From IMG/VR virus record IMGVR_UViG_3300032322_002561, positions 124,001-188,000 of that record: 64,000 bases of DNA, one strand, 5' to 3'. The position numbers and the translations under genes were made by a program. Each line of letters starts with the position of its first letter. Position 1 is the first letter of the stretch. The DNA is from a virus. The notes under the pieces are model-generated. The model made no database searches. It was not told where the DNA came from and saw only the letters and a list, made by a program, of their open reading frames with translations. This document shows positions 58,398 through 61,543 of this stretch, piece by piece.

Positions 58398-58426
58398 ATT
58401 ATAGCACGACTAAGTTTTAAAGTCAA
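58398..58426 (-). promoter_or_regulatory. Sigma70-type promoter for RNA 1/SleB-like gene
   Basis: Minus-strand TTGACT (58421-58426), 17 bases, TATAAT (58398-58403), then ATGTGTATATT; it overlaps the ferredoxin stop. Confidence 0.7.
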
Positions 58427-58749
58427 TCTCGTTCAATTAGATGTCTTTTTTGCTCGATCTTACTCCAATGATCAGCATCAGGCAAAGCATCAACTCGTTT
58501 GGTCATAGACGGCCATAATTGAGCTAACTCTGCATTGAGCGCAATAAATTCTTGTTGATCTCCAGGAACATCATCTTCGGCATAAATCGCATTTACTGGA
58601 CATTCTGGTACGCAAACAGCACAATCGATACACTCGTTGGGATCAATTACAAGAAAATTTGGCCCTGCTCGAAAACAATCTACTGGACACACATCTACAC
58701 AATCAGTGTAACGGCATTTGACACAGGCTTCGGTTACAACAAAAGTCAT
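58423..58749 (-). CDS. fdxA: 7Fe (3Fe-4S/4Fe-4S) ferredoxin, FdxA type
   Basis: 108 residues. Nine cysteines (9, 12, 17, 21, 25, 40, 43, 46, 50) in the spacing of Azotobacter-type ferredoxin I, followed by the long FdI-specific C-terminal extension ([15 protein letters not shown]). A low-potential electron carrier. RBS GAGGAG in the end of nadE. Confidence 0.92.
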
Positions 58750-58750
58750 A

Positions 58751-59512
58751 TTACTCCTCGAATTTACAAACTGGGATTGGCGTCATTTTGTGCATGTTTT
58801 GGGCACGCAGTTCTCGATAACGTTTTAATTTTTTCCTGTCTTGTGGCGCGGCTCCAAATCCCGCCGCATCCAACTGCATCATGGTTTCCAGTTCAGGATA
58901 GGTCATGCCCAACTGATCTTCATCGGTGCGTCCATCAGCCCAGAGTCCGTCTGTGGGTGCGGCATCAATGATTTCCGGCATGATGCCAAGCTCGCGACCC
59001 ATGGACCATACGTCGGTCTTCATGCAGTCGCCAATGGGGCTGATGTCCACACCACCATCGCCATACTTGGTAAAAAAGCCCACACCAAAATCCTCGACCC
59101 GGTTACCGGTGCCAACAACAATGCCACTATTGCACTGTGCAATTTGATACAAGGTCATCATGCGTAATCGACTACGGCTGTTGGCAAAGGCCAACTCGTT
59201 GTCAAACACTGTGCCCATGGCTCGTTCAAATTGTTTAAAAGTAGGTGTAAGATCCAAGGTGTAGTTTTCAGCATTGGGATATTGTGTGGTCAACCAGTAA
59301 GCATGCCCTACGCTGAGTTCATGAGTGTGTTTGCTCTGTTTTATGGGCATGCACACAGCCATGGTAGGGATACCGGTGCGAGCACACAAGGTGGATACCA
59401 CAGCTGAGTCAATGCCGCCCGATACTCCCACCACAAGAGTTTTGATCTTGTTTTTGGTGGCGTAGCTTTTGATCCACTTTGTAATATAATTAATTCTTTG
59501 TTTGGGCGTCAT
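58751..59512 (-). CDS. nadE: NH3-dependent NAD+ synthetase
   Basis: 253 residues from ATG 59512, ATGA-coupled upstream. SGGIDSA (31-37) is the ATP-pyrophosphatase loop, [20 protein letters not shown] the NaAD/ATP site and [14 protein letters not shown] the closing helix. It converts nicotinic acid adenine dinucleotide to NAD+. It may raise NAD supply for phage DNA replication (inference). Confidence 0.95.
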
Positions 59513-60042
59513 TCTATTTCTGGAGCGGGCATGGCTTTGATACGATCCCAAGTGGCCTGTTTATCCTTAATATGCTGTTCTAGCTTGCGATATTGTTCAC
59601 CCAGCTCACGCAGGTCCTCCCACTCCTTTTCCAATTCTGGATTGGGTTGGAACAGGCTCAAGCGTTCTTCGATCCTTTTGACCGCTGCTACCAGACTCCA
59701 GCCATTGACTTCTACATCAGCGCCTTCACCGTTGAGTTGGATTCGGCCGCTGGTAGGACTTTGTGTGAACCAAGGTGTTGCGTTGGTTCCAGTGGAGTAA
59801 ATGGTGTTGGACAACGAAAGATTACCAAAGGTAACCGAAGGTGAAATACTGGCTCCAATAGCACCAGTCACAGTGTATGGACTGGTCAGGCTCATGTTGT
59901 CCAAAGCCGAGGTAATGGTTATGGTATCATTTGCAATGTCACTGGCAGTGGGAGTGCTCTCGTACAAGGCAAAGTTGTTGTTTAGGTCCCACTCCTTGAC
60001 AATTTCCTCCAAGCGAGTGGGTGCAGATATTTTGGGTTCCAT
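59509..60042 (-). CDS. Conserved T4-like phage protein, coiled-coil end
   Basis: 177 residues. Beta-rich middle (TITITSALDNMSLTSPYTVTG), then NGWSLVAAVKRIEERL and a coiled coil (EWEDLRELGEQYRKLEQHI), found in T4-like phage virion or unknown proteins. TAATG overlap with the upstream gene. Confidence 0.65.
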   Translation of the reverse strand: MEPKISAPTRLEEIVKEWDLNNNFALYESTPTASDIANDTITITSALDNMSLTSPYTVTGAIGASISPSVTFGNLSLSNTIYSTGTNATPWFTQSPTSGRIQLNGEGADVEVNGWSLVAAVKRIEERLSLFQPNPELEKEWEDLRELGEQYRKLEQHIKDKQATWDRIKAMPAPEIE

Positions 60043-60770: not shown

Positions 60771-60775
60771 ACTAT

Positions 60776-60783
60776 AATTTATG
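60776..60783 (-). promoter_or_regulatory. Late-type variant box CATAAATT
   Basis: Minus-strand CATAAATT exactly five bases before ATG 60770. Confidence 0.35.
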
Positions 60784-60796
60784 CTTGAAAGAAAGT

Positions 60797-60828
60797 GCCC
60801 GGCTACCTTATGTCAAAAGGCCCCGGGC
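60797..60828 (-). terminator. Candidate intrinsic terminator at the end of RNA 2
   Basis: On the minus strand GCCCGG pairs with CCGGGC and an inner CCTT with AAGG, followed by ACTTTCTTT. The T-tract is imperfect. Confidence 0.5.
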
Positions 60829-61110
60829 TGGAGTATCATCGTTATCTAGTTCCGCACTAGCCGCGTAGTAGGTTTTAGTCTAACCTACCCAACCCCACAC
60901 CGTTCTGGTTGATGCGTTACCCCAGGTATAACCCCCTGGACGGGTGACATTGGTTTTGCTACTGGACTATTTGCTGTAGATCATATGCGTTACTCGAGTT
61001 TACATCTTATCTCTACAGTTACTCAGGTCTGATCAAACCCATGGCTTCCAATAGCAAAACCAATATCAGGGGACTTATGGTCTGGGCCTACACCCAGCGT
61101 CCGGCCCCTG
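60797..61110 (-). ncRNA. Candidate structured RNA 2
   Basis: About 314 bases with no convincing gene, just after the 111-residue gene. It has a perfect 13-bp long-range pair (60949-60961 with 61052-61064) enclosing a perfect 7-bp pair (60974-60980 with 61012-61018), hairpins at 60868-60888 (7 bp) and 60922-60939 (5 bp), a bulged stem 61067-61074/61099-61110 enclosing 61082-61086/61093-61097, and the terminator stem at the end. The duplicated GTAACGCAT is at 60911-60919 and 60986-60994. Multi-branched; no family matched (not tRNA, tmRNA or RNase P by eye). Confidence 0.6.
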
Positions 61111-61115
61111 AGCAA

Positions 61116-61451
61116 TTAGGCTACTACTGCATCTACAGACTTGACAGCGGCCTTGGCTTTTAAACCTTTGCCAGCTACTTTGACTTCGCCTTTCTTGGCA
61201 ACTTTGGTCTTTTCTGCCAGCTTGTTGGCTACTGCATAACCTGCATCGCCACTCTGACCCAAGCTCTGCAAGTGCTGGAGAGCTTCCAACTTGGTCATTG
61301 CACGTGGCAATTCGATCAAGTTGATGTCAGTGCAACCTGCCTTGTTTAGGATCTTGATACGAGCTACCAAGTCGTTTGCAAAACGTGCCTTAACAGTACC
61401 GTTAGGGTTTTTTGCTGTGCCTGCTACTGTGAATAATTTTTCTGCTGCCAT
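61116..61451 (-). CDS. Phage protein with Lys/Ala-rich tail, 111 residues
   Basis: Starts MAAEKLFTVAGTAKNPNGT, alpha/beta body, then KVAKKGEVKVAGKGLKAKA basic tail. RBS AAAGGCAAC and an exact TTGACA-17-TATAAT promoter precede it. Abundant-looking early gene; function unknown. RNA 2 follows it. Confidence 0.65.
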   Translation of the reverse strand: MAAEKLFTVAGTAKNPNGTVKARFANDLVARIKILNKAGCTDINLIELPRAMTKLEALQHLQSLGQSGDAGYAVANKLAEKTKVAKKGEVKVAGKGLKAKAAVKSVDAVVA

Positions 61452-61514: not shown

Positions 61515-61543
61515 ATTATACTTGATATTGGTGTCAATGTCAA
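61515..61543 (-). promoter_or_regulatory. Sigma70 consensus promoter
   Basis: Minus-strand TTGACA (61538-61543), 17 bases, TATAAT (61515-61520). Confidence 0.75.

Follow-up and report, generated by a model that had tools for sequence, protein, structure and literature searches.

Positions 60771-61115 of the window, the 64,000-nucleotide stretch of a 236-kb phage record analysed here, form a gene-free region without an open reading frame of at least 40 amino acids on the minus strand, and both genes flanking it lie on that strand. The original prediction had placed in these bases (314 of them) a single multi-branched RNA with nested perfect stems of 13 and 7 bp and a terminator hairpin at its end, and had given no strand. 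The absence of genes is borne out, and both stems are present, spanning 60949-61064 and 60974-61018, the inner one formed by 60974-60980 with 61012-61018. The region does contain a structured RNA with conserved pairing, but it consists of three modules, A, R1 and C, rather than one multi-branched unit, with R1 lying between the other two (Table 1). The GC-rich final hairpin exists as described; its reading as a terminator was not confirmed, since its tail, CTTTCTTTC, is too poor in U for the terminator scan, which made no call. R1 is encoded on the minus strand, as are both neighbouring genes. On that strand the 345 nt of the region fold with -122.4 kcal/mol (z = -3.8, with none of 100 shuffles as stable), compared with z = -2.1 for the plus strand, and none of 200 shuffles matched the stability of the 122-nt R1 core folded alone. 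The product of gene 61116 has no match in Pfam or PHROGs. Elsewhere in the window we noted genes for an NAD synthase (58751-59551) and a ferredoxin-like protein (58423-58749).

Table 1. Modules, stems and neighbouring elements of the R1 locus, in window coordinates; E-values of the covariance model are rough.
Feature	Position	Strand	Evidence or remark
R1 RNA, 122-nt three-way junction	60946..61067	-	covariance model match 112 bits, E 2e-20; fold z -6.5; compensatory changes in 92 sequences
P1 stem, 5' arm (13 perfect bp; 17-21 bp in the conserved P1)	61052..61064	-	
P1 stem, 3' arm, pairing with the 5' arm	60949..60961	-	
P2 hairpin	61025..61041	-	TGATCA palindrome in the loop, 61030-61035
P3 hairpin, 7-bp outer stem	60974..61018	-	apical palindrome ACTCGAGT at 60992-60999
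Module A, hairpin right behind the stop codon of gene 61116	61067..61110	-	comparison with relatives
Module C, variable structured stretch	60797..60945	-	end hairpin GCCCGGGGCC..GGTAGCCGGGC at 60797-60828
Gene 61116, 111 aa, upstream of R1, presumed co-transcribed	61116..61451	-	
Sigma-70 promoter ahead of gene 61116, perfect match to the consensus (TTGACA-17-TATAAT)	61515..61543	-	promoter scan

A search with a 14-mer from an R1 loop retrieved the same RNA from many phage contigs, typically within arrays of 10-30 tRNAs. A covariance model built on 27 sequences, the window sequence among them, found 39 loci at full length, and the window R1 matches it from positions 1 to 126 as a three-way junction with the tip ACTCGAGT. 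To this we added a second scan of IMG/VR that relied on the junction letters and used no base of the P2 or P3 loop; it returned at least 120 stretches, and among the matches listed 66 of 71 new loci were clear R1 members. The family thus comprises at least 92 distinct sequences of about 120 nt from uncultivated phages known through metagenomic contigs, a lower bound on a family that is larger than our sample. A phage usually carries one R1, and the covariance model searches found exactly one in each R1-bearing contig. One contig (L093, 10652-10692, minus strand) holds the palindromic P3 hairpin of R1 by itself in a gene-poor stretch (E 2e-4); no tRNA was found in that contig, and the lone hairpin had no match in Rfam.

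Base pairing in the family is maintained by compensation. Two-sided changes occur in 29 of 35 pairs in the 27-sequence alignment and in 31 of 35 in the 92-sequence alignment, counts that do not represent independent events, as many of the sequences are related. In the larger alignment 94.7% of cells are paired, against 74.3% after shuffling and 28-46% with slid partners, and the covariation score is 0.575, against 0.194 and about 0.1 or less, respectively. The conserved pairing in relatives on which the original prediction hinged is thus strongly supported by covariation. G-U cells outnumber A-C cells about tenfold (105, 134 and 208 versus 11, 17 and 13 in alignments A1, A2 and A3; alignment A4 was fitted to the covariance model), which indicates that the structure acts as RNA on the minus strand. 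We regard the family, its secondary structure, strand and genomic context, and the constraint on its palindromic loops as established by sequence comparison.

Judged from the searches made, R1 is a previously undescribed family outside Rfam. The cmscan check proposed at the outset did not yield an identity: Rfam 15, searched at gathering score and at E up to 10, gave only chance matches for the R1 region, and ROOL was likewise unmatched. The GOLLD model (RF02032) matched neither R1 nor any other part of the window or of the 236-kb record above its gathering score, and the phi29 pRNA model (RF00044) did not match R1 up to E 10. No related isolate was found in INPHARED by blastn with the region and three family variants or by tblastn with the neighbouring gene; one query returned phage Sebago only, at chance level (E 4). 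When bacterial genomes were scanned once with the CTCGAG loop, the only match obtained was not supported by the covariance model. T4 rnaC and rnaD were rejected as homologues because they gave no match even with filters off, and readings as a 5S rRNA-like RNA, K-turn, group I intron or ribozyme were judged by eye and dropped for want of a match. We found no usable terminase or capsid marker for a tree of R1 phages. The 236-kb record holds one R1 copy and no second, so the 'RNA 1' that had been set beside this region is not a copy of R1, and a mobile repeat was ruled out on the same grounds.

The most distinctive feature of the family lies in its loops; neither these palindromes nor the tRNA-array family figured in the original prediction. 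For the palindrome count we took the set found without loop letters and excluded the first set of 33 sequences, most of which had been found through a CTCGAG loop. Among the matches listed, all 41 distinct P3 loops are palindromic over 6 nt or more at the centre, where shuffling predicts 3.8. The cores comprise 13 different 6-mers (CTCGAG, CACGTG, CGATCG, CTGCAG, CGGCCG, TTGCAA, TCTAGA, TGGCCA, TAGCTA, TTCGAA, CAGCTG, TCCGGA and TCGCGA), and examples of complete tips are GCTGCAGC (L226), GTGGCCAC (L231) and CCAGCTGG (L225). Positions ±1, ±2 and ±3 about the centre are Watson-Crick complementary in 40 of 40 distinct cores, against shuffled means of 19, 12 and 21; complementarity then falls to 29 of 40 at ±4 and 5 of 40 at ±5, which bounds the self-complementary block at 6-8 nt. 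The bases flanking the palindrome are A-rich, and computed energies of P3-tip duplexes range from -4.5 to -17.3 kcal/mol. Cores are also swapped between RNAs: in near-identical backbones with different cores the differences amount to 2 of 108 positions in the backbone versus 8 of 16 in the loop, and one cluster at 85% holds six different P3 cores.

No single hairpin allows pairing at positions ±1 and ±2, and a hairpin-tip palindrome that is unable to pair with itself points to kissing between two copies. We rejected an internal pseudoknot as the source of the P3 palindrome because the core recurs within the same RNA in just 1 of 92 sequences. A centred 4-nt palindrome is present in 32 of 36 distinct P2 loops (eight kinds; 7.9 expected), and the central 4-mers of P2 and P3 are identical in just 4 of 92 sequences. 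The shortness of the P2 palindromes, and the four distinct P2 loops that lack one, weigh against the kissing reading. Taking the two loops together, we propose with considerable confidence that the R1 core is a self-associating, trans-acting phage non-coding RNA that forms a kissing-loop homodimer or a larger assembly.

The genomic setting of most R1 members is the tRNA array. Among the matches listed, no more than 10 nt separate R1 from a tRNA on the same strand at 83 of 104 loci; of 47 tRNAs that abut it upstream, 35 are tRNA-Glu, and P1 often takes in the terminal ACCA of this upstream tRNA. In 20 of 29 R1 contigs searched there is no homologue of gene 61116, and in four more there is a weak one only, so the family has spread beyond the group of the window phage. 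In many arrays a stretch of about 200-250 nt with a long terminal stem, probably another structured RNA, is found between tRNA-Glu and R1 (for example L150 1361-1607, minus; L139 221-459, plus; L109 685-908, plus; L262 5546-5753, minus). Permuted-type tmRNAs were seen in phage contigs L140 (11639-12008, minus) and L083 (2777-3297, minus). The window phage has a tRNA cluster of its own (L167 2083-11481, at 82-91.5 kb of the record), with 11 tRNAs and a permuted tmRNA whose tag is ANAANDEVFALAA; R1 is absent from that cluster.

A second setting involves GOLLD. In six loci (L136, L098, L097, L100, L134 and L109) the GOLLD 3' domain is found some 410-440 nt downstream of R1, a distance close to the size of the GOLLD 5' domain (PMC12286853). 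In the three loci scanned (L136, L098 and L097) a near-consensus promoter (11 of 12) immediately precedes R1, and the R1 strand has no called terminator between R1 and GOLLD. In these loci R1 looks like the first (5') domain of the GOLLD transcript.

In the window phage R1 occupies the 3' flank of gene 61116, a slot that we compared across 79 relatives retrieved from IMG/VR with this gene as query. In most relatives the slot is filled by an ordinary intrinsic terminator, in others by a small lipoprotein-like gene, a membrane-protein-like gene, a simple hairpin or a folded RNA. The slot of the window phage contains module A, then R1, then module C. R1 stands directly behind gene 61116 in the window phage and six relatives, and in L020, L021 and L314 it sits between the stop of the gene and an ordinary intrinsic terminator, the order in L314 being gene, hairpin A, R1, terminator. 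The outer stem of module A covaries among relatives (CAGGGG/CCCCTG, GGGTGG/CCACCC, GAGAG/CTCTC and CTGAGG/CCTCAG) and encloses a conserved motif ending in UAAGU, these letters lying in the conserved 3' side. Hairpin A also occurs in relatives without R1 (L007, L012, L056, L010 and L014) and is possibly a protein site or processing signal. The end hairpin of module C is common to L002, L004 and L156, and its inner part to L156 only, one relative being too few to derive a structure.

The original prediction had suggested that the RNA could be 3'-processed from the early gene at 61116. The same-strand position downstream of the gene and the perfect promoter upstream of it fit derivation from the 3' part of its transcript, while the processing itself would be a further, conjectural step. 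Lying outside a tRNA array, the R1 of the window phage could be a 3'UTR element. Extended to the family, this becomes a model in which R1 is a cis-acting element, one of several interchangeable folded inserts, whose hairpins protect or process the mRNA end of gene 61116. Its position right after the gene in seven phages, in a slot filled elsewhere by terminators, simple hairpins or other genes, speaks for such a model. We nevertheless consider it improbable, since most R1 members lie between tRNA genes without gene 61116, and protection of an mRNA would explain neither the conserved junction letters nor the palindromic loops.

Many P3 cores are typical restriction-enzyme-like 6-mers, and one may ask if the palindromes are DNA sites, for a dimeric DNA-binding protein, methylation or recombination, that fall by chance at a hairpin tip. 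This is highly improbable: the palindromes occupy the exact centre of two RNA loops, the core differs between phages so that no single site is matched, and the G-U pairs of the stems, seen on one strand, are of the RNA type. We give equally little weight to R1 as a decoy or mimic, a bait within the array for host tRNA-directed nucleases or processing enzymes. Its tight placement after tRNA CCA ends and the ability of P1 to pair with ACCA would suit that function, but R1 has no tRNA-like fold and the palindromes would go unexplained; a decoy role could coexist with dimerisation. That R1 is a packaging-motor RNA of very large phages, like phi29 pRNA, with which it shares size class, three-way junction, long end helix and two loops free for intermolecular pairing, is scarcely credible, because Rfam scans gave no pRNA match, the R1 loops are complementary to themselves and not to each other, R1 is linked to tRNA arrays rather than packaging genes, and no need for an RNA motor part is known in very large tailed phages.

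For self-association of R1, we propose the following model. The long terminal helix P1 would hold a three-way junction that presents hairpins P2 and P3. Their self-complementary tips would join two R1 copies by symmetric kissing, P3 with P3 over 6-8 bp and P2 with P2 over about 4-6 bp; the product would be a homodimer, or a larger assembly if the P2 and P3 loops are used in turn. In the window phage the RNA would come from the 3' part of the gene 61116 transcript; in most relatives it would be excised from between the tRNAs of an array, and in some it would form the 5' domain of the GOLLD RNA transcript. Dimerisation, release or processing, and a structural role in infection are all steps that we infer from sequence. 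More tentatively, and with rather less than even confidence, we speculate that the two loops serve as an identity tag, such that the R1 of each phage assembles only with its own copies and loops are selected to diversify so that the RNAs of co-infecting phages do not co-assemble.

What would be the relevance of such an RNA? RNAs that function as homo-oligomers in nature are described as rare (PMC7357161), and R1, if its loops do serve as an identity tag, would represent a naturally occurring code for homotypic RNA recognition, one that switches rapidly. In this small and common RNA, evolution itself may have repeated the compensatory-mutation test for self-pairing many times. Being far below GOLLD and ROOL in size, and located beside GOLLD in some phages, it may offer an easy system for the role of self-assembling phage RNAs, and lets one ask why these RNAs live in tRNA arrays.

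Among known systems, R1 appears analogous to RNAs of the kissing-loop type, with a pRNA-like plan in a GOLLD/ROOL-like setting and a match to none of their models. GOLLD and ROOL are, like R1, phage-encoded structured RNAs near tRNA islands. Both oligomerise via kissing loops, two of which are self-interacting in GOLLD; GOLLD forms a 14-mer cage held in part by such loops, and the contacts of its half-shells are symmetric loop-loop pairings (PMC12286853). The palindromic loops of R1 are consistent with this behaviour, but at about 120 nt R1 is far smaller, mostly stands alone, and has short palindromes that differ in each phage. The T4 species 1 and 2 RNAs (rnaC and rnaD) are also small stable RNAs of a tRNA cluster, directly behind a tRNA, though rnaD lacks a strong fold of the R1 kind. 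The plan of phi29 pRNA, a phage RNA in the size class of about 120 nt with a three-way junction, a long end helix and intermolecular loop-loop pairing, resembles that of R1. In pRNA the two loops that join head to tail differ and are complementary to each other (PMC7357161), whereas each R1 loop is self-complementary, and R1 occurs in other phages and another gene context. The closest likeness at the level of the loop is the HIV-1 DIS, where a 6-nt palindrome at a hairpin tip, with required flanking purines, drives homodimerisation (PMC7357161). R1 likewise has a 6-nt tip palindrome with purine flanks; unlike the DIS, which belongs to the genome of an RNA virus and is an unrelated RNA, it carries two such loops in many sequence versions.
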